A DNA stretch of 64,000 bases from Terriglobales bacterium. GTDB lineage: Bacteria; Acidobacteriota; Terriglobia; Terriglobales; Acidobacteriaceae. A model generated the notes under the pieces. The model was not told the origin of the DNA and did not search any database. It saw only the letters and a program-made list of their open reading frames with translations. Location: assembly GCA_025462725.1 (NCBI GenBank), contig JAOAPE010000014.1:62001-126000 (forward strand), read 5' to 3'. Below are positions 1 to 11,041 of the stretch, piece by piece. How positions within the stretch are numbered: the stretch's first letter is position 1; every line of letters begins with the position of its first letter. Position numbers and translations under genes: made by a program.

Positions 1-60
1 CAACGGTGACTTTGTATTTTTCCCGCTCGCGGCTTGACTGCTGCTCTGGGGCGCTCAGAA
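1..60 (-). CDS. hpnE: Squalene-associated FAD desaturase HpnE (5' fragment)
   Basis: Partial gene running off the left edge. After the hpnD stop codon the minus strand stays open in the -1 frame and reads SAPEQQSSREREKYKVTV up to base 1. The KYKVTV end looks like the first beta-strand of a Rossmann FAD-binding fold, as expected for HpnE, the flavoprotein that turns hydroxysqualene into squalene and usually follows hpnD. No ATG, GTG or TTG is available in frame. A CTG at 58-60 overlaps the hpnD stop as CTGA and has AAGGTG about 6 nt upstream, so I take CTG as the likely start. Identity rests on 18 residues plus synteny, so confidence is modest. Confidence 0.5.
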
Positions 61-975
61 GATCACCTTCAGCAGCCCTTGCGAAAGCACGCTGAGTTTT
101 TCTGGAACCGTAAGCCGAACCTTTTCCTGGAAGACGTTGTAATTTCGTGCGGCGATCTTATCGAGCAGTCGGCGATAGATTTCGACGAGCGCCCAAAGGC
201 ACGGACGGCTGTCGTCTTCGATTAGCGGGATCAATTGCTCGGCAGCTTTGTAGAATTCACGCGCACGTTGGGATTCAAACTCGAGCAGCGGAGTAAATGC
301 TGATGATTGAAATCCGTTCGACAGCTTTTCCGGAGTCAGTTCCGCCGGCGATCGCTGAAATCGGACAAGGTCTTCTTCAGGTATGTACACGCGCCCCATC
401 TGCGCGTCCTCTTTGACGTCGCGAATGATGTTGGTAAGTTGAAAGGCAACGCCGGTTTGCTCCGCTAGTGCTTCGGCTGCCGCATCTTTGTATCCGAAGA
501 TGTGAATGCAAACTAATCCGACGACCGATGCCACGTGATAGCAATAGCGATAGAGTTCATCAAACGTCCGGTACGGGACAACAGGCCCAGTGGCGCTAGA
601 CCCAGCTGCGGCGGAGGCAGCGAACTGCAAGTCCATCGCAGTGCCCGCAACGAGTTGCTCGAAAAGTCGCAGTGGGATCTTGAAGCGGGATTGCGTGTCT
701 GCAAGGGCAAGGATCACCGGATCATCGCTACGTTCACCTTCGACCGCGCGACGCAGAGAATATGCCCAAGCCTGAAGCTGCGAACGGCGCTGGTCGAGGG
801 TCAAGCCGGGATCGTCAGAGATATCGTCCGCATGGCGCATGAATGCATAAACAGCGCACAGGGAATTACGCTTGTGTCGAGGCAGCGCAAGAAAAGCGTA
901 GTAGAAGTTCTTCGCCTGCGAGCGGGCCACTCCCCGACAGACAACATAAGCCATCGAAAGCTGCCGGTCGCTCAT
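55..975 (-). CDS. hpnD: Presqualene diphosphate synthase HpnD
   Basis: 306 aa, family length. It condenses two farnesyl diphosphates to presqualene diphosphate, the first step of the three-enzyme HpnD-HpnC-HpnE route to squalene for hopanoids. The first aspartate-rich motif (HADDISDD, residues about 48-55) and the second (NIIRDVKED) that bind Mg-diphosphate are intact, as is the N-terminal SQAKNFYY stretch typical of squalene/phytoene synthases. The ATG overlaps the hpnC stop by 4 nt (ATGA), so the two are translationally coupled. It is the last complete gene of the minus-strand hopanoid operon here. HpnD rather than HpnC is chosen on gene order and sequence character. Confidence 0.9.
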   Translation of the reverse strand: MSDRQLSMAYVVCRGVARSQAKNFYYAFLALPRHKRNSLCAVYAFMRHADDISDDPGLTLDQRRSQLQAWAYSLRRAVEGERSDDPVILALADTQSRFKIPLRLFEQLVAGTAMDLQFAASAAAGSSATGPVVPYRTFDELYRYCYHVASVVGLVCIHIFGYKDAAAEALAEQTGVAFQLTNIIRDVKEDAQMGRVYIPEEDLVRFQRSPAELTPEKLSNGFQSSAFTPLLEFESQRAREFYKAAEQLIPLIEDDSRPCLWALVEIYRRLLDKIAARNYNVFQEKVRLTVPEKLSVLSQGLLKVIF

Positions 976-1988
976 AGCAACTTCCCTTTACGCAATCCGG
1001 CGCGCAATACCATCCAAAGTTTTCGCGGCTTGGAAATCACCGGGCGCGATACGAGAACATCGAAACCCTGCTTCTCAATGGCGTTCAAAATCTCCTGTCC
1101 ACCTCGGCTGAACAGTTCGATATCTACGGCGAGTTCGGGAGAGATCTTCTGAATCAACGGCAGACCGCGCTCAAACCATTCCCGGGCGCGTTCGACCAGG
1201 AACTTCATCAGCGCGATGAATTCCGGAGTAGCGCGGCGCTGCGCTATATCGGATTCGGAAACGCCAAAGCGCTGCATGTCTTCCAGCGGAAGATAGATTC
1301 GCCCTTTGGCGTAATCCACATTCACGTCCTGCCAGAAGTTACCGAGTTGGAGGGCGGTGCATGTGTAGTCCGAAAGCTGCTGACGCTCCTCATCACGGTA
1401 TCCGCCCAGATAAAGCACCAGATGCCCAACAGGATTCGCTGAGTAGTGGCAATACTCGAGGACGTCGTCAAACGTGGGGAATCGCGTGATCGTCTGATCA
1501 CGACGAAATGCCGTGAGCAGATCGGCAAAGGTCTGCTGCGGGATATCGAATTCACGGACGGTCTGCGCTAATGCGACGAACACTGCATGTCGTGGCGAAC
1601 CTGCGTAGCAAGCTCGCAATTCCGCTTCCCATTCGTCAAGCAGGGCAAGCGATTGCTGAACGTCACCGACCTCGTCGCCAAGATCGTCGGAGATTCGGCA
1701 ATACGAATAGACGTTGTAGAAATGTTGCTTCAGGTGCACTGGTAAGAACCAAGTCGCCACAGAGAAATTTTCGTAATGACTTTTCGCCAGCCGCTCGCAG
1801 TAGGCAAATGCCTCACTTAGAGTGGGTGCATGCGCAGGGATCCGGTACTCCGGAGGCAAAGCATTCCATCCCGCTTCGGACAAAGCAGACGCGTTAGCGT
1901 TAGAACGCTGGAGGTTTGAACTTGGCATGGCTGCGGGCGACAGGATTCCCTGTTTCGGTTCTTCTAAGTCTCCGTCGTATTGATTCAC
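972..1988 (-). CDS. hpnC: Hydroxysqualene synthase HpnC
   Basis: 338 aa. Second squalene/phytoene-synthase-family protein of the operon; the family converts presqualene diphosphate to hydroxysqualene. The first motif reads CRISDDLGDE and the second NFWQDVNVDYAKGRIYLP, both characteristic of HpnC. The first roughly 35 residues are low in conservation. The GTG at 1988 lies 8 nt after the upstream dehydrogenase stop; an in-frame ATG (MPSSNL) about 60 nt later is an alternative start. It overlaps hpnD by 4 nt. Function is assigned from family and synteny. Confidence 0.88.
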   Translation of the reverse strand: MNQYDGDLEEPKQGILSPAAMPSSNLQRSNANASALSEAGWNALPPEYRIPAHAPTLSEAFAYCERLAKSHYENFSVATWFLPVHLKQHFYNVYSYCRISDDLGDEVGDVQQSLALLDEWEAELRACYAGSPRHAVFVALAQTVREFDIPQQTFADLLTAFRRDQTITRFPTFDDVLEYCHYSANPVGHLVLYLGGYRDEERQQLSDYTCTALQLGNFWQDVNVDYAKGRIYLPLEDMQRFGVSESDIAQRRATPEFIALMKFLVERAREWFERGLPLIQKISPELAVDIELFSRGGQEILNAIEKQGFDVLVSRPVISKPRKLWMVLRAGLRKGKLL

Positions 1989-1996
1989 ACTGCCCG

Positions 1997-3046
1997 TCAG
2001 TGACCGGGAATGATCGCGGTCTTGATATCGCCGCTGCGATTCAACATGCTGCGCAAAACGTATTGCAGGCGCGAGAGCGGCTCTTCACCGGTGATGTAAT
2101 CCGTGCTCTTGATCTTCTTTTCCGTGATCAGCTTGAATGCTTTGCGGACTGTCTCCGGAGTGTGATGGAACGTGGCCTTCAACGTGATCTCAGAGTAGTG
2201 CAGGAGATTGGTGTCAAGCTCGACTTTGGTCCCAGTCGCGCAGCCACCGAAGAAGTTCACGGTACCGCCTTTGCGAACCATGTCCACTGCCCATTGCCAG
2301 CCTTGCGGGCGGCCAACGGCTTCGATCACCACATCCGGCCCGCGATGGTCAGGAGTAAGCATCTTCACCTTTTGGATAGGATCATCAACATTCGTAATCT
2401 GCACAACATCGTGCGCGCCGAACTTGACCGCCGCTTCCACTTGCTCATCGCGTTTTACGACCGCGATCACATTGCATCCGGAGAGGCGCGCTACCTGGAT
2501 GAATGAAAGACCTATTGGTCCGCCACCGATGATGGCAACGGTGTCACCGACTTCCGCTCCCGTCTCATGAAGGCCACGGAGTACACACGCCAAAGGCTCG
2601 GTCATCGCCGCAGCTTCAAAACTCACGCCCGCGGGAATTTCCAGCATGTTCGATTCAACGATCCTACGCGGAATGCGAATGTATTCAGCGTATGCGCCAT
2701 TGTTGAATAGCAAATCTTCGCAAAGATTTTCCTGGTGCTTGCTACAGTAGAAACACTTGCCGCAAGGCGCGGAGTTCAGCGCCACAACACGCATACCAAC
2801 TTTGAATTTCTTAACGCCGGGGCCCACCTCTTCGATGATGCCCGCAAGCTCGTGTCCGAAGAGTGCCGGAGGAATGATCATGCGCGCGTGATATCCGCGC
2901 TGGAAGACCTTCAAGTCAGTACCGTCAGTGAGGGCTACTTCCACCTTCACGAGCACTTCCCCTTCACCAACGCGGGGAATGGGGACTTTCTCGATCTTCA
3001 CATCCTCTTTGCCGTAGAGGACTGCGGCTGTCATTTTTCCGTTCAC
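1997..3046 (-). CDS. Zinc-type MDR alcohol/polyol dehydrogenase, catalytic Cys replaced by Asp
   Basis: 349 aa member of the medium-chain dehydrogenase/reductase superfamily (sorbitol/threonine dehydrogenase branch). The structural-zinc cluster CGKCFYCSKHQENLC, the GHE motif (H65, E66) and the nucleotide fold GGGPIG are present. At the catalytic-zinc position, where relatives read CGTD, this protein reads DGTD, so the Cys ligand is Asp41. Asp can bind zinc, so the enzyme may still be active with altered metal geometry or substrate. It lies between a second MDR enzyme and hpnC in the hopanoid operon, which suggests work on the sugar-derived hopanoid side chain. Start is GTG with AAGGA upstream; an ATG at 3034 is possible. 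Confidence 0.8.
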   Translation of the reverse strand: MNGKMTAAVLYGKEDVKIEKVPIPRVGEGEVLVKVEVALTDGTDLKVFQRGYHARMIIPPALFGHELAGIIEEVGPGVKKFKVGMRVVALNSAPCGKCFYCSKHQENLCEDLLFNNGAYAEYIRIPRRIVESNMLEIPAGVSFEAAAMTEPLACVLRGLHETGAEVGDTVAIIGGGPIGLSFIQVARLSGCNVIAVVKRDEQVEAAVKFGAHDVVQITNVDDPIQKVKMLTPDHRGPDVVIEAVGRPQGWQWAVDMVRKGGTVNFFGGCATGTKVELDTNLLHYSEITLKATFHHTPETVRKAFKLITEKKIKSTDYITGEEPLSRLQYVLRSMLNRSGDIKTAIIPGH

Positions 3047-3068
3047 GTCTTGCGTCCTTCCAAGTACC

Positions 3069-4178
3069 TTACTGTTGCACAGGCCGAATCACGATCTTCA
3101 TCGAGTCGGGCTGCGGGTTGGCGGCCACCTGGATCGCCGGCACCGCGTCTTTCAAAGCGAACCGGTGAGAGACCAACTTGCTCAGGTCCACCCCACCGTT
3201 AAACACAAAATCTACAGTTTCGTTTTGGATATCCACCGATGCGCTGTACGAGCCCATCAATGTTTTCTCGTCCACACAAATCGCCGCCGGATCAATCGCC
3301 GCTTCGCTGCGAACCGTCTGCGCAAAAAGCATTACGCGACCACCTGGCCGTACGGCATCCATCGCAGGCCGTATTAAGGCATTGCCCCCAACAGCGACTA
3401 CAACTGCGTCCGCGCCCCGTCCCTCCGTCATCTGTTTCATGCGCTCGACGACGTTTTCAGAGGCTGCGTCAATGTTCTCAGTTACACCGAATCCTTTAGC
3501 TATTGTAAGCCTCTGGGAGTACAAATCGGAAGATATAACCCGGGCGCAAGCCCGCCTTGCCAATACAGCCAAAATGATGCCAATCGGGCCTTGTCCCATG
3601 ACCAGAACCGTCTCCCCAGCCTGTAGCCGGAGACTCTGGATTCCCTTCAAACAGGTGTTTACGGGCTCAATGAACGAAGCCTGCTCGAAGCTGACGTTCT
3701 CAGGGATTTTCACCACACCCTTACGTACGATCCAATCCATCACTCGGATGTACTCAGCGAATCCCCCGCCTGCGGCCTCGAAACCCGCTGTCGCACCAAC
3801 TTTCTTGTACACAGGACATTGCGCATAGACCTTGAATCGGCAGTAATAGCACTCGCCGCACGGGATGTGGTGGAAGACCATGACACGATCGCCGACCGCA
3901 AAGTTCTCAACCCCTGGCCCAGTTTTGGCGACGGTGCCGGACATCTCGTGTCCGAATATGCGCGGGGCTGAGTGCGAACCAGTAGCAATCTTCTTAAGAT
4001 CGGTGCCGCAAATTCCGCAAGTATCGATCTTGACGAGCAGCTCTCCCGCTCCAATCTCGGGGACATCGACTGTCTCGACGCGAACGTCATTCACTCCGCG
4101 ATAGACCGCAGCCAGCATGCTGCTGGGGACCGAGACAGGCTCGAATTTCTTCTCGTCCTTAGTTGTTGCTACTGACAT
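3069..4178 (-). CDS. Zinc-type MDR alcohol/polyol dehydrogenase
   Basis: 369 aa, about 20 residues longer at the N-terminus than its downstream paralogue. It has the intact catalytic-zinc motif CGICGTD (Cys57), GHE (H77, E78), four structural-zinc cysteines (CGECYYCRFKVYAQC) and a GQGPIG dinucleotide-binding turn. The family oxidises or reduces polyols, sugars or threonine with NAD(P). It overlaps the upstream hpnG-like gene by 20 nt and is followed 22 nt later by the second dehydrogenase. Position directly after the nucleoside phosphorylase makes ribosylhopane (an aldose) a plausible substrate. This is inference; the sequence alone fixes only the family. Confidence 0.82.
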   Translation of the reverse strand: MSVATTKDEKKFEPVSVPSSMLAAVYRGVNDVRVETVDVPEIGAGELLVKIDTCGICGTDLKKIATGSHSAPRIFGHEMSGTVAKTGPGVENFAVGDRVMVFHHIPCGECYYCRFKVYAQCPVYKKVGATAGFEAAGGGFAEYIRVMDWIVRKGVVKIPENVSFEQASFIEPVNTCLKGIQSLRLQAGETVLVMGQGPIGIILAVLARRACARVISSDLYSQRLTIAKGFGVTENIDAASENVVERMKQMTEGRGADAVVVAVGGNALIRPAMDAVRPGGRVMLFAQTVRSEAAIDPAAICVDEKTLMGSYSASVDIQNETVDFVFNGGVDLSKLVSHRFALKDAVPAIQVAANPQPDSMKIVIRPVQQ

Positions 4179-4905
4179 TAGCCTCTAATCCTTCAAGTAC
4201 TGCTTTAGATTGTTGCTCGATGCGAACTCTAAGCGCGTGGCAAAGCTTTTCAGTAGCGATAGAGCTGTTTGCCGCCAACTTCATCACCGTCCGCCAGAGC
4301 CACGGACGCACGGCAATGTACCCGACAAAGCTTCCAGTCTTGAATTCCCCGGCATCTCCTACGAAACGCCCCATCGGTGGCATGGGGAAATCGTATTCGT
4401 CGGAAATGACTTTCACTGCTGTGCAAGGAACATTGTAAACACGAGCGACATCCGCCACTGCGAAAGCTTCCATGTCTACTGCCTGCGCGCTGTAGTTGTT
4501 CGCAAATATCCGCTTGTGCTCAACCCCGGCGATTGCACCCGCGCTGACGAGAATCCCCTTCCCGCCGGCGGTCTCAATGGTGTTGTTGTCTGACTCTCCT
4601 ACTATGCTCGCCGGTTCAAAGATATCGCCGACCTTCAAGCCGGGAACGAGCGCGCCTGCAAATCCGGCGGAAATGAAATTGCTGACCTGTCCGTTAGCGA
4701 AACGCCACGCAGCATCCGTAGCGATGCGCGCGGAAATACCACCAATCCCGCCCAAAGCCACAATCGCGTTCTCGGATTCGAAAATCTTGATCGTCCGATT
4801 CTGTGAATCCACGGAGGTGCTGTTCCACCCTTTTACAAGTGGCGCAATCTCTCGATCCAATGCCGCGATGATAGCGATTCGCTTTTTGTGATTGGCTTGA
4901 CTCAT
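4159..4905 (-). CDS. hpnG: Hopanoid-associated nucleoside phosphorylase (HpnG-like)
   Basis: 248 aa PNP_UDP_1 (MTA/SAH nucleosidase-like) protein. It has the GGIGG phosphate/ribose loop, SAGFAGAL, the VDMEAF motif whose Met-Glu contacts ribose, and KVISDEYD carrying the base-binding Asp. HpnG removes adenine from adenosylhopane made by HpnH, giving phosphoribosylhopane, the precursor of bacteriohopanetetrol. The start codon overlaps the hpnA stop by 4 nt. The C-terminal roughly 50 residues after the core are helical and variable. Assignment as HpnG rather than housekeeping MTA nucleosidase rests on operon context. Confidence 0.82.
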   Translation of the reverse strand: MSQANHKKRIAIIAALDREIAPLVKGWNSTSVDSQNRTIKIFESENAIVALGGIGGISARIATDAAWRFANGQVSNFISAGFAGALVPGLKVGDIFEPASIVGESDNNTIETAGGKGILVSAGAIAGVEHKRIFANNYSAQAVDMEAFAVADVARVYNVPCTAVKVISDEYDFPMPPMGRFVGDAGEFKTGSFVGYIAVRPWLWRTVMKLAANSSIATEKLCHALRVRIEQQSKAVLEGLEANVSSNN

Positions 4906-5894
4906 GCGACGTATCCGTTCGACTTAAACCAATCCACAGCGCGTCGAAGCGCGTTATCGACGGGAACGATCTTGTAGCCGAGTTCGCGCTCCGCTTTCGC
5001 AGACGAAGCAAACATCTTCTTCCTGCCCATGCGGACAGCGTCAATCGTCGCCCGCGGTTCTTTCCCGCGGATTCGTCCTGTGAAGATCTCGTCGAAAACT
5101 GCGAATCCCAGTGCGAGAGAATGTGGAACCTTCATTGTGGGTGAAGGAAGACCAGTGATTTCCGAAAGTTTGTCTAGCAACTGTTTTAGCGTGAAGTCTT
5201 GTCCGCCAAGAATGTAGCGCTCACCGGGAACCGCGCGCTCCATGGCGGCAATATGTCCGTTCGCCACCTCAGTGACATCGGCGAGGTTGAGTCCGGTATC
5301 CACGTAAGCTGGGAAATTTCGCTTCAAGGAATCGAGAATGATGCGCCCCGTCGGCGTGGGTTTAATGTCCTGCTCGCCAACGGGAGTCGTTGGATTTACG
5401 ACCACCACATTCGCGCCGTTCTTCCCTGCTTCAAGCGCCACCTGCTCCGCCATGAACTTTGAGCGCTTGTAGTGTCCGATTATCTCTGGCAGGGCCACTG
5501 GATCAGCTTCCGTCACGGGGCGTCCATTCGAAGTTGCGAATCCCATGGTCGCCACGCTGCTACAGTAAACAACACGCCGGACGCCTGCCTTTTGCGCTGC
5601 CTCGATGATCGCTCGAGTGCCTTCCACATTGGCCGCGTACATCTCTTTCGGATCAGGAGTCCACAACCGGTAATCCGCAGCGACATGAAAAACAAACTCG
5701 CATCCCTGCATGGCGCCCTGCAGAGAAGCCGGGTCGCGGAGGTCGCCCGTGACCAGATCGGCGTTCAACTCAGCGATGTTGTCCTTGCGACTTGTAGGAC
5801 GAACAAGCAAGCGCAACTCCGCTCCGCGTGCGGCCAATTGCTTGGCCACATGCGAGCCGACAAATCCCGTTGCGCCTGTTACGAATGCTTTCAT
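4902..5894 (-). CDS. hpnA: Hopanoid-associated NAD-dependent sugar epimerase HpnA
   Basis: 330 aa extended short-chain dehydrogenase. The N-terminal TGATGFVG nucleotide-binding motif, the catalytic SSVA serine region and the YKRSK (YxxxK) active-site pair are all present. HpnA proteins are conserved in hopanoid clusters, but their exact reaction is not settled; an epimerase or reductase step on a sugar-linked hopanoid is usually proposed. I use the ATG at 5894 (MKAFVTG), not the TTG 12 nt upstream, because the fold begins right after it. A hairpin at 5913-5935 lies just upstream and separates this gene from the preceding operon member. Confidence 0.88.
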   Translation of the reverse strand: MKAFVTGATGFVGSHVAKQLAARGAELRLLVRPTSRKDNIAELNADLVTGDLRDPASLQGAMQGCEFVFHVAADYRLWTPDPKEMYAANVEGTRAIIEAAQKAGVRRVVYCSSVATMGFATSNGRPVTEADPVALPEIIGHYKRSKFMAEQVALEAGKNGANVVVVNPTTPVGEQDIKPTPTGRIILDSLKRNFPAYVDTGLNLADVTEVANGHIAAMERAVPGERYILGGQDFTLKQLLDKLSEITGLPSPTMKVPHSLALGFAVFDEIFTGRIRGKEPRATIDAVRMGRKKMFASSAKAERELGYKIVPVDNALRRAVDWFKSNGYVA

Positions 5895-5912
5895 TTCCCG
5901 CTTCAATCAATA

Positions 5913-5959: not shown

Positions 5960-6385
5960 CTATTCCAAGGCCTCGGGCGTGATCCCAATATTCTTCTCGC
6001 CTGCTGCGCGTTTCTCCCAATATTTCTTGACCCAGGCTTCATAGCTTTTCCCGGCTGCGGTATCGCGTCCACTGAAAACCAGGGCGGCAATGTCGGAATA
6101 AGGAATGCTGATCTTTGTGTCAGCATCCTTCGGAAAGAGGCGAACCACTGAATCAGCCAGTGCTGACCCTGTGCGACGATCGAAAATATACCCTTCGATC
6201 TTGCTGCCGTCCTTGCGAGTAATGGTCACATCGCCACGAAAATCGAATGCCTTTTCGAATGCCGAGCGAATCTCTGCTTCCGACGCCAACTCCGGCACCC
6301 AGCCTTCCAGCTTTTCATGAGCTGTACCCGGCGCGACTTCGAGAGCATCCGGATTCTTCACATCCTGTTCGGAGACGTTGCTCAC
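5960..6385 (-). CDS. Conserved-looking unknown protein of the hopanoid operon
   Basis: 141 aa, soluble, charged, no signal peptide or membrane segment. The first 40 residues are helical. The middle ([18 protein letters not shown] ... [15 protein letters not shown]) has alternating strands that could form a small Sm/SH3-like barrel, and the C-terminus is a basic helix ending in a short tail. I do not recognise a named family. Its ATG overlaps the hpnH stop by 4 nt, and it precedes hpnA by 65 nt. That coupling argues for a role in hopanoid biosynthesis, perhaps as an accessory or scaffold to HpnH. No catalytic motif is visible. Confidence 0.75.
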
Positions 6386-7509
6386 GCGTTTGTCTCCTCG
6401 AGTTCAGCGGCGGACTTGTGTAACTGTTCGACTCCGACGAATCCATGCACTGCCTTCGCAGGCTCATTCAGAAGCTCAAGCGCGCCCGCATCTTTGTAGG
6501 TATTGAACAGCGTCGCGCGGACAGTGTCGAAAAATCCGCCGAGCGATCCGAAAGTATCATTCACCGCGGAAGGCTCATAGCCACAGTGCACCATGCAATT
6601 CGCGCATTGCGGATTGCCAGATTCGGTGCCGTACTCTTTCCAGACAGTGGTTTCCATCAACTCTTTGTAGGAATCGGCGTAGCCGTCCTGAAGGAGGTAG
6701 CAGGGTTTCTGCCATCCGAAGATGTTGTAGGTTGGCATGCCCCACGGAGTGCATGAGTAAGGCCGCTTTCCCATCAGAAATTCGACAAAGAGCGGAGATT
6801 GGTTGAATCGCCACGTCTTTTTGCGATTGGAAAATATCGCGCGGAACAATCGGCGCGTGCGCGCGCGTCCGAGAAAATGCTGCTGATCAGGCGCTTTGTC
6901 GTAAGAGTATCCCGGCGAGAGCATCATGCTCTCAACACCGATGTCCATCATCTCGTCAAAAAATGCGCGGACACTGTTCGCGTCGGCGCCGTCAAAGAGA
7001 GTGGTGTTTGTCGTGACGCGGAAGCCACGTTCCAGCGCTGCTTTGATTCCTTCCACCGCAATGTCATATCCGCCTTCGCGGCAGACAGAAAAATCATGGT
7101 GTTCCTTCTGCCCGTCCATGTGAACGGAGAAGGTCAAATACTTGCTCGGCTTGAACAGTCCAATTTTCTCCTTCAACAGCAGAGCATTCGTGCAGAGATA
7201 AATGTACTTCTTGCGCGCAACCAGTCCTTCAACGATCTCCGCGATCTGCGGATGCATCAGCGGCTCACCGCCGGGGATGCTGACCATCGGCGCGCCACAT
7301 TCGTCCACTGCCTGGAAACATTGTTCCGGCGTGAGGTTCTTTTTCAGGATGTGAGCTGGATACTGGATCTTGCCGCAGCCCGCGCAAGCGAGATTGCAGC
7401 GGAACAGCGGTTCCAGCATAAGCACCAAGGGATAGCGCTCCCGCCCAGCAAGCTTTTGCCGCAGCACATAGCTCGCTACCGTCCACATCTGTGAAACTGG
7501 AACTGCCAT
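6382..7509 (-). CDS. hpnH: Hopanoid C35 radical SAM enzyme HpnH (adenosylhopane synthase)
   Basis: 375 aa. Radical SAM protein with the CNLACAGC motif (Cys38, 42, 45) for the 4Fe-4S cluster, followed by the GGEP SAM-binding motif. A C-terminal cysteine group CANCMVHC matches the extended HpnH family. HpnH adds the 5'-deoxyadenosyl group to diploptene/hopene, giving adenosylhopane, the first extended (C35) hopanoid. The gene is 11 nt downstream of the DUF1801 gene stop-to-start and couples to the next gene through an ATGA overlap. Length and motifs fit the family closely. Confidence 0.95.
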
Positions 7510-7520
7510 CGATTCTCCTC

Positions 7521-8039
7521 TTACTTGCCTTTTGCCGCTGCTCTTGCCTTTATGCGTTTTGCGATCTCTGCGCGTGGAGTCGGCTTGTGTGCAGCGCGAA
7601 TGTCCTGATAGCGCTTCATGTATGTCTTTGCCGAAATCCTTTTGACCGATTCTCCGATCACATCAAGCGCAAGGTCTTCCAATTTCTTGAACCGGACGCG
7701 TGACTTGCCTACATCCAATTTCTTTCCCGTCTTTGCCCACGCAGCCTTAAACCATTTGGCTTCGTCCTCTGAGCCGTAGATGCCACTCAAGTACAGAGCC
7801 ATGTGGTTTTTCTGCGACGCTAAAGCGATGAACAGCAGCGGCTTTGTTGGATCGCAATGGTATCCAGCGGGAAATATTCGATGCGGAACGAAGTATCCGA
7901 TCATCCCGTAAAGGATTCCCTCTTCGTAATCCTTGTCCAGATTCTTCAGGATCACGTTGCGGATCGCTGTAATTGCCGGACGACGGTCCTCGGGCAGCGA
8001 CTTCAGATACGCGTCGACAGTGCTAGCTTTTGTCTGCAC
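7521..8039 (-). CDS. DUF1801 / YdhG-like protein
   Basis: 172 aa protein with the DUF1801 pattern: an N-terminal helix ([23 protein letters not shown]), a GMIGYFVP loop, and a central [19 protein letters not shown] strand region. The C-terminus is strongly basic ([12 protein letters not shown]). Biochemical function of the family is unknown; the fold is YdhG-like. It lies 2 nt after the shc stop and 11 nt before hpnH, so it is co-transcribed with hopanoid genes. A role there is only inferred from position. Confidence 0.82.
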
Positions 8040-8041
8040 GG

Positions 8042-10057
8042 CTAAACCTTCCCTGTCAGAACTGCGTCATCAACATCGTGAAACGCACGTGCGTAAGCAG
8101 TGAGCGCCATCAACGGGAAATAGAGACGATACATGTGGTACGCAAGATAGAAGACCCGTGGGAACCCGGTTCCGGTGTACTGTGGTTCATCCCAACCGCC
8201 GGCGTTCTTCGTTCCAGCTTTTTTCTGCGTTCGCAGAAGGTATGACACGCCTCGCTGGACAGACTCACTACGAGTGTCGCCGGCAGCGAGCAATCCCAAA
8301 ACCGCCCACGCTGTTTGTGACGGCGTGCTCGGGCCCACGCCCTTTGTGTTTACATCGTCGTACGAATTGCAGGTTTCGCCCCAACCATCGTCAGGGTTCT
8401 GCATCATTCGCAGCCACTCTGCCGCTTGCTGGATCATCGGCTCATTCTTGTCGATACCAATCGCGTCCAACCCGCGCAGCACTTGCATGGTGCCATAGAT
8501 GTAATTCACGCCCCAGCGTCCGAACCATGACCCATCGGATTCCTGCGACTTGCGAATAAAATTCAGCGCGCGTTTTACTGCAGGATCCTTCTGCGTGAAT
8601 CCATACGACGCCAGCATTTCCAAAACCCGACCGGTGATGTCCACGGTTGCAGGATCGAGCATCGCATTGTGGTCCGCGAACGGAACGTACTGGAAGACCA
8701 TCTTGTCATTGTCTTTGTCGAACGACGCCCAACCGCCATCTTTGCATTGCATCGCCAGTACCCATTCGAGGGCGCGCTTGATTGACTTGTGCTGATAGCT
8801 CTCGTCCGCCGTGATGACCTTGCTCAGTCCGAGCATCACCATCGCAGTGTCATCAACGTCCGGATAAAACTCGTTGTTGAATTCGAAATACCATCCTGCG
8901 GGCGCAACGTTCTTTACCTTTACTGCCCAGTCGCCGGGATGGGTGACTTGCTTCTTCAACATCCATTCAGCAGGCGCAACCATTCGCGGATCGTCAGCGG
9001 GAACGCCAGCTTCACCCAGCGCAAACAGCGCATAAGCCGTGTCCCACACCGGTGACATGCACGGCTGCATACGGAATCGGTCGCCTTCCTCGATGCCGAG
9101 TTTCTCGAATTCATCAATGGCGCGCATCACCTGGGGGTCGTCGAGTGAGTATCCGAGACAACGAAGCGCAATGATTGAATTCATGATCCCGGGATAGATC
9201 GCTCCCAAACCGTCACTCATTTCCATGCGCGCGAGCATCCATTTCTCGGCTTTCTTGATCGCAATAGATCGTAGCGGCCGCACGTGAACGCGCTCAAACC
9301 AATGAGTCATGTGGTTGAGCACGAGAAAGAAATTCCGCCAGCTGATCTTTTTCTTTGACCACTTCAGGTGGAGATCTGCGTTCTCGCGTCCGCCGAGATA
9401 CAGTTCGCTAACACCCATCTCGTCCGGAATCTTCTTGAACGGCTTCTTCGCGTACGCGATCGACAGCGGAACCAGAATGGCGCGGGACCACGACGATATC
9501 TCGTAGATGTTGAACCAGAACCAGTTTGGAAAGAGGATCATCTCCGGCGGGACTGCGGGAACCGCGTCGTAATCGTACTGGCCGAAGAAGCAGAGATAAA
9601 TTTTTGTGAAGGTATTGACTTCAGTTACACCACCCATGGCCAGCACGCGCTCGCGCGCCTTTTCCAACACAGGATGGTCAGCTTTGTATCCGGCCAGCTT
9701 GAGGCCGAAGTACGCTTTCACTGTCGCACTAATGTTCGACGGACCGCCGTTAAAAATCGGCCATCCACCGTCTTCGTTCTGATGTCGGATAATCTCCCGC
9801 GCACATTTGGCGTTGCGCTCTTCATCCACAGTTCCAAGAAGCGTGTGCAGCAGAATGTAATCGGATTCGAGAGTGGTATCGGCTTCTAGTTCGCCGCACC
9901 AATAGCCCTCTTTATGCTGGATGGAAAATAGGTTGTCGCGTGCTGCAGCGATCGCAGACGTGACTCGCGAAATTGCATTGCCTACTTTGCCGAAGAACAT
10001 CATATCGGCAGAATCAGCGATGTTGCCGGTGGCCTCGCGATTGTGGTCGTTCTTCAT
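8042..10057 (-). CDS. shc: Squalene-hopene cyclase
   Basis: 671 aa, typical for bacterial SHC. It cyclises squalene to hopene/diplopterol at the membrane. The catalytic DVDDTA motif (acid Asp of DxDD, residues 400-403) is intact and at least five QW repeats are visible (QHKEGYW, QNEDGGW, QCKDGGW, QESDGSW, QNPDDGW). The ATG overlaps the ispH stop as TGATG; a TTG one codon earlier is less likely. It is the second gene of the operon, so the isoprenoid enzyme IspH and the cyclase are made together. Confidence 0.96.
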   Translation of the reverse strand: MKNDHNREATGNIADSADMMFFGKVGNAISRVTSAIAAARDNLFSIQHKEGYWCGELEADTTLESDYILLHTLLGTVDEERNAKCAREIIRHQNEDGGWPIFNGGPSNISATVKAYFGLKLAGYKADHPVLEKARERVLAMGGVTEVNTFTKIYLCFFGQYDYDAVPAVPPEMILFPNWFWFNIYEISSWSRAILVPLSIAYAKKPFKKIPDEMGVSELYLGGRENADLHLKWSKKKISWRNFFLVLNHMTHWFERVHVRPLRSIAIKKAEKWMLARMEMSDGLGAIYPGIMNSIIALRCLGYSLDDPQVMRAIDEFEKLGIEEGDRFRMQPCMSPVWDTAYALFALGEAGVPADDPRMVAPAEWMLKKQVTHPGDWAVKVKNVAPAGWYFEFNNEFYPDVDDTAMVMLGLSKVITADESYQHKSIKRALEWVLAMQCKDGGWASFDKDNDKMVFQYVPFADHNAMLDPATVDITGRVLEMLASYGFTQKDPAVKRALNFIRKSQESDGSWFGRWGVNYIYGTMQVLRGLDAIGIDKNEPMIQQAAEWLRMMQNPDDGWGETCNSYDDVNTKGVGPSTPSQTAWAVLGLLAAGDTRSESVQRGVSYLLRTQKKAGTKNAGGWDEPQYTGTGFPRVFYLAYHMYRLYFPLMALTAYARAFHDVDDAVLTGKV

Positions 10058-11025
10058 CAATTCCTAGCCGCTGGAGCTGCCGCAATAGCTTGAACAATCT
10101 CCGCAGGCAGTCCGAAGCGTACGTTTTCCGGCATCACTTCAATCTCTTCGACGTCCGTGAAACCTTCATTGGCCAGAAATTCGACAACTTCTTTCACAAG
10201 CACTTCAGGCGCGGATGCCCCGGCTGTCAGCGACACAGTACTCACGCCGCTCAACCACTCTCGCTTTATGTCAGAGTAGCAATCGATCAGGTGCGATGCG
10301 CGGCCAAGATTGCGTGCCACTTCCACCAGCCGATTCGAGTTCGAACTGTTCTCAGAGCCGACAACCAGAAGCAAATCTGTATCCCCTGCCACTTGTTTCA
10401 CTGCAACTTGGCGATTCTCAGTGGCGTAGCAGATGTCCTGCGCCGCGGGTTCGTGGATATTAGGAAATTTCTTCTTCAATGCCGCAATGATCTGTCCGGC
10501 TTCGTCCAAACTCAGAGTGGTTTGAGTAATATATGCGACCTTGTCCGGATCCGGCACCGTGATGTGCTCAACTTCTTCGGGGCTTCCAATGATCTGCGTC
10601 ACTGTCGGCGCTTCCCCGAGTGTTCCAACTACTTCTTCGTGATCGCGATGTCCGATGAGGAGCAGCGAGTATCCCTGCTTTGCGAACTTAACCGCTTCGA
10701 CGTGTACCTTTGTGACTAGCGGGCAAGTTGCGTCAATTACGCGGAGCTTACGGGCCTTACTGTCTGAACGAACTTCGGGCGAGACACCGTGCGCACTGTA
10801 AATGACGCGAGCTCCCTCAGGAACCTCATCAATCTCATTGACGAAGATGGCCCCCTTATTCGTCAGGTCGTCCACTACGTAGCGGTTGTGGACGATTTCA
10901 CGGCGCACATATATGGGTGCACCGAACGTTTCGAGGGCGATCCGAACGATGTCGATGGCGCGAACCACACCAGCGCAGAAACCCCGGGGTTTCAGCAAAA
11001 GAAGTTTTTTACCGTTTTGGCTCAT
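10057..11025 (-). CDS. ispH: 4-hydroxy-3-methylbut-2-enyl diphosphate reductase IspH
   Basis: 322 aa. Last enzyme of the MEP pathway, making IPP and DMAPP. The three Fe-S cysteines are visible in PRGFCAGV, in DATCPLV and in QDICYATENR, with the SSNSNRLVE diphosphate-binding motif. I use ATG at 11025 (MSQNGKK) rather than the TTG at 11040. A TATACT -10-like box ends 16 nt upstream. As first gene of the hopanoid operon it couples precursor supply with squalene-hopene formation; it overlaps shc by 1 nt. Confidence 0.95.
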   Translation of the reverse strand: MSQNGKKLLLLKPRGFCAGVVRAIDIVRIALETFGAPIYVRREIVHNRYVVDDLTNKGAIFVNEIDEVPEGARVIYSAHGVSPEVRSDSKARKLRVIDATCPLVTKVHVEAVKFAKQGYSLLLIGHRDHEEVVGTLGEAPTVTQIIGSPEEVEHITVPDPDKVAYITQTTLSLDEAGQIIAALKKKFPNIHEPAAQDICYATENRQVAVKQVAGDTDLLLVVGSENSSNSNRLVEVARNLGRASHLIDCYSDIKREWLSGVSTVSLTAGASAPEVLVKEVVEFLANEGFTDVEEIEVMPENVRFGLPAEIVQAIAAAPAARN

Positions 11026-11041
11026 GAGCTTTAGTCTCAAC

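Follow-up and report, generated by a model that had tools for sequence, protein, structure and literature searches.

A pair of zinc dehydrogenase genes accompanying hopanoid synthesis in Acidobacteriota, with a possible role in forming the hopanoid side chain

Two adjacent genes for zinc-binding medium-chain dehydrogenases/reductases (MDR1 and MDR2) were analyzed in the hopanoid operon of a Terriglobales bacterium (assembly GCA_025462725.1, contig JAOAPE010000014.1, positions 62,001 to 126,000, a stretch of 64,000 nucleotides referred to here as the window). Taking all side-chain readings together, the two are probably enzymes of the hopanoid side chain, and MDR2 is put forward tentatively, ahead of MDR1, as a candidate ribosylhopane reductase in these bacteria, a proposal made from sequence. 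The initial annotation had placed the two genes between an hpnG-like gene and hpnC, and the open reading frames (ORFs) were found there as described. The hpnG-like stop (4159) falls 20 nt within the MDR1 ORF (ATG at 4178), and gaps of 22 nt and 8 nt separate MDR1 from MDR2 and MDR2 from hpnC. Because MDR1 orthologues beyond the closest relatives of the window mostly align from residue 13-20 onwards, the real start of MDR1, and hence the overlap with hpnG, could differ.

Hopanoids are widely used molecular fossils, and the initial annotation had held that the enzyme converting ribosylhopane to bacteriohopanetetrol was unassigned. This gap proved real in the passages of PMC5462960 (2017) and PMC12583986 (November 2025) drawn on here, to which all our citations of the two papers refer: the former calls the enzyme unknown and proposes HpnA, and the latter still describes it as unestablished. 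In the full-text literature searched, with most subscription journals outside it, no title or abstract named these MDRs, or any enzyme, as ribosylhopane reductase. Linkage of an MDR gene to the hopanoid cluster has been known since 2017, when three hopanoid gene clusters were described in Acidobacteria, including hpnA-hpnG-ug1 and ug2-hpnC-hpnD-hpnE (PMC5462960). There ug2 encodes about 350 aa, is frequently annotated as a Zn-binding alcohol dehydrogenase, precedes hpnC in SD1 and SD3, and is treated, with its function unknown, together with squalene synthesis. The positions of ug1 (after hpnG) and ug2 (before hpnC) match those of MDR1 and MDR2, and by this position ug1 is probably MDR1, although in that paper the product of ug1 is unstated and the pair is not treated as a unit. 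New here are the cofactor types, the distribution against shc and hpnH, and the sister pairs. A compact gene pair with predicted cofactors makes the step checkable in one lineage, and the answer would show whether bacteria evolved different enzymes for it, which bears on the reading of hopanoid biomarkers.

The distribution of the pair was determined in a panel of 197 Acidobacteriota genomes with completeness of at least 90 (G195 has contamination above 5%). Searches were run at E 1e-60, and matches of at least 370 bits for MDR1 and 380 bits for MDR2 are termed strong. HpnH was over its cut-off in 54 of the 197 genomes and squalene-hopene cyclase (Shc) likewise in 54, with G148, at a contig end, matching Shc below the cut-off; the two genome sets differ only in G100, where shc is present and HpnH absent. 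Strong MDR1 was found in 34 genomes and strong MDR2 in 35. While 33 of the 54 HpnH genomes carried strong MDR1, only 1 of the 143 others did, namely G100 with its shc (Fisher test, p about 4e-22, a value which overstates the case because the genomes share ancestry). Strong MDR2 occurred without HpnH in G100 and G117, and all but one of the 22 genomes in the family of the window carried both genes. Weak matches were seen for MDR1 in G019 (210.8 bits, no HpnH) and for MDR2 in five genomes of family f30, in G070 and G191, and as a second copy in G117. By the initial annotation, a lack of co-occurrence with hpnH/hpnG would have refuted its proposal, and no such lack was seen in the panel.

Constancy of the arrangement was examined in loci obtained by an MDR2-based scan of named genomes, which used short patterns and reached close relatives only. 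The scan yielded 41 loci, 28 from Acidobacteriota at 74-98% identity and 13 non-orthologous at 30-36% (one of these also from Acidobacteriota). As the 28 loci were selected by likeness to MDR2, they speak for constancy and not for frequency. Where the contig was long enough, MDR1 preceded MDR2 in 26 of 26 and hpnC followed MDR2 in 27 of 27, and hpnG preceded MDR1 in 21 of 24 judgeable loci. Such an arrangement is not accidental. In L013, hpnG lay about 8 kb off on the opposite strand, and in L014 and L022 no hpnG was present in the stretch ahead of MDR1. Across the panel, 21 of 34 genomes had MDR1 and MDR2 no more than 300 nt apart. Of the 13 genomes where they are separated, 12 had MDR1 no farther than 3 kb from hpnH and the other (G115) had it adjoining hpnG, while every one of the 13 had a squalene-synthase-type gene no farther than 219 nt from MDR2. 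The separations are probably the outcome of one or two breakpoints that a clade has inherited. Within the genome of the window, which has 10 ADH_N matches, MDR1 and MDR2 are mutual best relatives at 35% identity.

Both proteins matched ADH_N and ADH_zinc_N over the Pfam cut-offs, and no NCBIfam model was over cut-off for either. Motifs were read in 35 MDR1 and 38 MDR2 rows, excluding L114 (a duplicate of the window locus) and partial rows, namely L018 and L023 for MDR1, one from L031, and L026 and L029 for MDR2. The four structural-zinc Cys were constant in all rows of both proteins. The catalytic zinc residues Cys/His/Glu/Glu were complete in 35/35 MDR1 rows; in MDR2, His/Glu/Glu were present in 38/38 and the catalytic Cys in 36/38. 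A further zinc-ligand Glu marks the polyol-dehydrogenase branch, and with this Glu in every row the label of sorbitol-dehydrogenase type given in the initial annotation is a fair one. An acidic residue at the end of the second Rossmann strand is typical of NAD(H)-type enzymes, and a non-acidic residue followed by a basic one of NADP(H)-type enzymes. This position held D in all but one of the 35 MDR1 rows, the remaining row having E, while in MDR2 it was V in 30, G in 7 and D in 1 of 38, followed by K34 R3 N1 and then by R34 H2 E1 N1. By this rule MDR1 would be NAD(H)-type and MDR2 nearly always NADP(H)-type.

In the window and in L002 (2 of the 38 MDR2 rows), and also in the partial row L029, the catalytic Cys of MDR2 is replaced by Asp. 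Halophilic glucose dehydrogenases have Asp at this position. When window and L002 were compared, MDR2 showed the strongest conservation among seven operon genes (97.7% identity), and its ratio of nonsynonymous to synonymous substitution rates (dN/dS) of about 0.016 was the lowest of six computable genes; hpnA gave no value, hpnC, hpnE and ispH were excluded from the set, and the values are rough, with dS near saturation. Given this conservation, the Asp form seems to be preserved and not in decay, and a decayed MDR2 was set aside.

The AlphaFold models were confident, with a predicted local distance difference test score (pLDDT) of 94.6 for MDR2 and 92.0 for MDR1. The nearest solved folds were zinc MDRs of mixed function, among them 4ej6 (Z 45.0 for MDR2 and 41.9 for MDR1), NADP-bound 4ejm (44.7 and 41.6) and the ketose reductase/sorbitol dehydrogenase 1e3j (42.4 and 40.1). 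The fold, as modelled, is an ordinary MDR fold and is uninformative on substrate. With sorbitol and polyol dehydrogenases (1e3j, 1pl6, 3qe3, 3m6i, 7y9p) the two proteins have in common the whole-length fold, the four structural Cys, His-Glu and the further Glu; they differ in an identity of only 25-28%, in the Asp of the window MDR2 and in a stretch peculiar to MDR1 around residues 130-137. The three best NCBIfam scores for both proteins were to threonine dehydrogenase (TIGR00692, NF003808) and the scyllo-inosose dehydrogenase IolM (NF041097), at 145-172 bits against cut-offs of 380-458, so neither is a member (TIGR00692, 160.1 for MDR2 and 170.7 for MDR1 against 458.35; NF041097, 145.0 and 166.0 against 450). 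Two zinc MDRs (YdjJ, YdjL) also lie, by annotation, with the aldolase YdjI in the sugar-type ydj cluster of E. coli. The ydj stretch seen contained no hopanoid genes, and a likeness, with no claim to orthology, is meant. Among the nearest folds of both MDRs was 5vm2 (ECK1772, which we take to be YdjJ).

Position, co-occurrence, pairing, motifs and fold being as described, a substrate, a direction and a division of labor can be proposed conditionally. HpnH would add adenosine and HpnG would then remove adenine, after which an NADPH-type MDR2 could reduce the open-chain aldehyde of ribosylhopane to bacteriohopanetetrol. An NAD-type MDR1 would share this side chain as its target, being a second reductase or oxidase or else oxidizing a hydroxyl of the tetrol. 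MDR1 and MDR2 would thus represent a co-inherited pair of polyol-dehydrogenase type that one large section of the Acidobacteriota has taken over for work on the hopanoid side chain. MDR2 is preferred over MDR1 because of its NADPH-type motif and stronger conservation. The cell-free reduction reported by Bodlenner et al. in 2015 is said to have used NADPH.

A number of observations weigh against this proposal. The panel counts are not phylogenetically independent. The place of MDR1 directly after hpnG speaks for MDR1 as the reductase, and MDR2, rather than being tied to hpnG, had a squalene-synthase-type gene no farther than 265 nt away in 32 of 34 genomes (the exceptions being G059, where it is not near one, and G194, where it lies within 1.5 kb of a contig end). 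Strong MDR2 occurred without a neighboring MDR1 in G117, G197 and G198, the first of which has neither HpnH nor Shc. The weak sister pairs described below sit outside hpn loci. Of the 54 HpnH genomes, 21 were without MDR1; an HpnG-like match was found in 20 of these, within 3 kb of hpnH in 15, and hpnA stood beside hpnH in 9 of the 15 MDR1-less loci read (L074-L076, L078-L083). C. thermophilum is likewise reported to have no ug2 and yet to produce tetrol and its cyclitol ether (PMC5462960).

The MDR1-less genomes comprise five of family f30, which have the weak form of MDR2, nine of family f45, six single genomes and G007, whose contig stops about 2.4 kb after the HpnH match and in which hpnC was likewise not found. 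No MDR was present at the hpnH locus in any of the 15 read, G007 included. As 7 of 14 control genomes also gave an HpnG-like match, those not close to hpnH may represent some other nucleosidase. HpnG-like proteins reached the TIGR03468 cut-off in 0 of 58 Acidobacteriota genomes tested, and annotation by that cut-off would therefore overlook them. A constant replacement reductase in the MDR-less clusters was sought among the ORFs of L074, L076-L084 and L095 (the last from G059, which has MDRs elsewhere) and none was seen. In the f45 cluster L074, and there only, a luciferase-like oxidoreductase (L074:6746-7801) adjoins the hpnG-like gene. Because of the MDR1-less HpnH genomes and the reported tetrol of C. 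thermophilum, a role as tetrol reductase in general is excluded for the pair, which is a lineage-specific solution at most. The missing-reductase idea of the initial annotation is partly supported by these results.

The relationship between strong and weak forms was addressed with a 67-row tree, from which 36 of 103 rows had been dropped (7 long-branch, 29 near-copies) and in which outgroup rows were few and all MDR2 matches. MDR1 and its weak relatives formed one group (bootstrap 99, Shimodaira-Hasegawa-like approximate likelihood ratio test (SH-aLRT) 97), and MDR2 with its weak relatives a second (bootstrap 100, SH-aLRT 99). A quick tree of all 103 rows gave SH-aLRT values of 90 and 99 for the MDR1 and MDR2 groups. 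Weak MDR1 adjoined weak MDR2 in seven of the eight places read of ten (L088, L089, L092, L093, L094, L130, L131), with L090 having weak MDR2 and no adjoining weak MDR1. From the tree groups and these sister pairs, the pair seems to predate its place in the operon, and it may have had a non-hopanoid origin.

Such adjacency at non-hpn loci, together with the retention of one NAD-type and one NADP-type enzyme, resembles an oxidation-reduction couple and is consistent with a pair that acts after the tetrol has formed. MDR1 (NAD) would then oxidize a hydroxyl to a ketone and MDR2 (NADPH) would re-reduce it, giving new stereochemistry or other polyols, with the ribosylhopane step left to another enzyme, as must hold in producers without the MDRs; the existence of HpnH genomes lacking the pair fits this. 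We nevertheless consider it unlikely, as no stereoisomer or keto-hopanoid is tied to these strains in PMC12583986 or PMC5462960, and penta-functionalized hopanoids are reported in few strains of the latter (three in the abstract, five in the text), yet nearly every genome of the family of the window has the pair. A fuller version, in which NADPH- and NAD-type enzymes act in turn on the lipid to convert aldose to polyol and then to a ketone or epimer, is quite improbable. If true, these bacteria would possess their own tetrol reductase and would rework stereochemistry into undescribed polyols, the window and its nearest kin doing so with a zinc site varied to Asp.

Reduction of ribosylhopane might instead fall to HpnA or to a general aldose reductase, with the MDRs performing other hopanoid-linked redox work such as aldehyde or alcohol clean-up. 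HpnA is the enzyme proposed in 2017, but the same paper notes that hpnA is non-essential in Burkholderia and absent from Rhodopseudomonas (PMC5462960). Its presence beside hpnH in the nine MDR-less loci named above favors such a role, as do its next NCBIfam matches, all under cut-off, which were SdmB and 2-alkyl-3-oxoalkanoate reductases. This too we regard as an unlikely account, standing level with action after the tetrol.

Genomes of family f27 have lost other hpn genes while keeping the MDR pair. HpnE was missing in nine of ten (G034, G075, G100, G108, G140, G156, G164, G187, G195), and these nine had a single squalene-synthase-type match (E 1e-40), which in G195, the one examined, was over the HpnD cut-off. 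This pattern was noted at L102:10906-11796 and in the nine genomes, which all have shc. HpnE was also without a match in G091, from the family of the window. HpnG-like matches in f27 were weak, scoring 71.6 bits or less, and for the most part incomplete, and G187 had none. In the four genomes read (G034, G148, G164, G195) hpnA, MDR1 and MDR2 stood together with no hpnG between. HpnH was 66-76% identical to that of the window in the f27 loci read (on other contigs) and 39-44% in G084, G148, G171 and G059, and the MDR pair accompanied both forms. These loci therefore indicate that the pair is bound more firmly to hopanoids and hpnA than to HpnC, HpnE, HpnG or one kind of HpnH. The two divergent kinds of HpnH within hopanoid loci (76% in L100 versus 43-44% in L098, L099 and L104) suggest that one kind was replaced by the other.

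That the pair is a catabolic couple for sugars or polyols, in the operon by history and unrelated to hopanoids, is less likely again. The weak sister pairs in unrelated surroundings agree with it, as does G059, where the strong pair is remote from hpnH and hpnC and adjoins a proline dehydrogenase gene. It is opposed by the near confinement of strong MDR1 to HpnH/Shc genomes, by the persistence of the pair beside hpnA in f27 and by the strong constraint on MDR2. A link to methionine salvage had been considered for the lone MDR2 of G117, which lies near a HAD hydrolase gene and an mtnD-like gene (by eye). In G197 the lone MDR2 is near a fructose-1,6-bisphosphatase gene, with a similar-looking ORF in G198, and the link was dropped because the contexts differ.

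Least probable of all is that MDR2 belongs to squalene synthesis with HpnC, HpnD and HpnE, the association stressed in 2017: its closeness to squalene-synthase-type genes, also in the 13 genomes with MDR1 elsewhere, and the nine f27 genomes without HpnE and a second squalene-synthase-type gene are in its favor, but the functions of the three Hpn proteins were established through E. coli expression (PMC5462960), and of 56 genomes with HpnC over cut-off the 28 without shc contained no strong MDR1 or MDR2, on which ground a squalene-only role was rejected. When E 1e-40 was taken as a looser threshold for HpnC, giving 86 genomes of which 46 are without shc, strong MDR1 or MDR2 was found in 0 of 46 and weak MDR2 in two (G070, G191), a count that is less telling because this threshold also picks 3 of 14 control genomes, maybe through carotenoid synthases.

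Table 1. Coordinates of the hopanoid operon genes and of the cofactor and zinc-site codons in the window, in order of the run.
Feature	Position	Strand	Remarks
ispH	10057..11040	-	Opens the run; TIGR00216 315.5 bits (cut-off 187.85)
shc (squalene-hopene cyclase)	8042..10060	-	TIGR01507 768.8 bits (cut-off 431.1)
DUF1801 gene	7521-8039		Flanked by hpnH and shc
hpnH (adenosylhopane synthase)	6382..7509	-	TIGR03470 554.1 bits (cut-off 225.05)
141-aa ORF	5960..6385	-	Conserved, without family; by position perhaps ug3 of PMC5462960
hpnA	4902..5906	-	Short-chain dehydrogenase/reductase, 'hopanoid-associated sugar epimerase'; TIGR03466 489.6 bits (cut-off 367.65)
hpnG-like phosphorylase/nucleosidase	4159..4905	-	TIGR03468 85.6 bits, under cut-off 187.1; PF01048 66.8 bits (cut-off 25.1)
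MDR1	3069..4178	-	Zinc-binding MDR of 369 aa with an NAD(H)-type motif; probably ug1 by position; PF08240 92.1 bits, PF00107 69.1 bits
MDR1 D218	3525..3527	-	Acidic residue of NAD(H)-type enzymes; nearly invariant in alignment
MDR2	1997..3046	-	Zinc-binding MDR of 349 aa with an NADP(H)-type motif; probably corresponds to ug2 (PMC5462960); PF08240 87.0 bits, PF00107 89.5 bits
MDR2 codon 41	2924..2926	-	GAC (Asp) at the catalytic zinc Cys position
MDR2 V197-K198-R199	2450..2458	-	End of second beta strand in cofactor domain, NADP(H)-type
hpnC	972..1988	-	TIGR03464 339.8 bits (cut-off 250.45)
hpnD	55..975	-	Best-scoring model HpnD, below cut-off; TIGR03465 239.6 bits (cut-off 278.6)

The genes of the operon form a single minus-strand run, ispH-shc-DUF1801 gene-hpnH-141-aa ORF-hpnA-hpnG-like-MDR1-MDR2-hpnC-hpnD, with hpnE, also over its NCBIfam cut-off, immediately past the window edge (Table 1). 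The 141-aa ORF had no Pfam or NCBIfam match and is conserved beside hpnH in the family of the window, and the DUF1801 gene had no tblastn match in the other loci compared. Beyond hpnE, outside the window and on the opposite strand, lie hpnJ (over cut-off, L001:6247-7743) and a gene for a small EamA-like membrane protein (L001:7774-8235).

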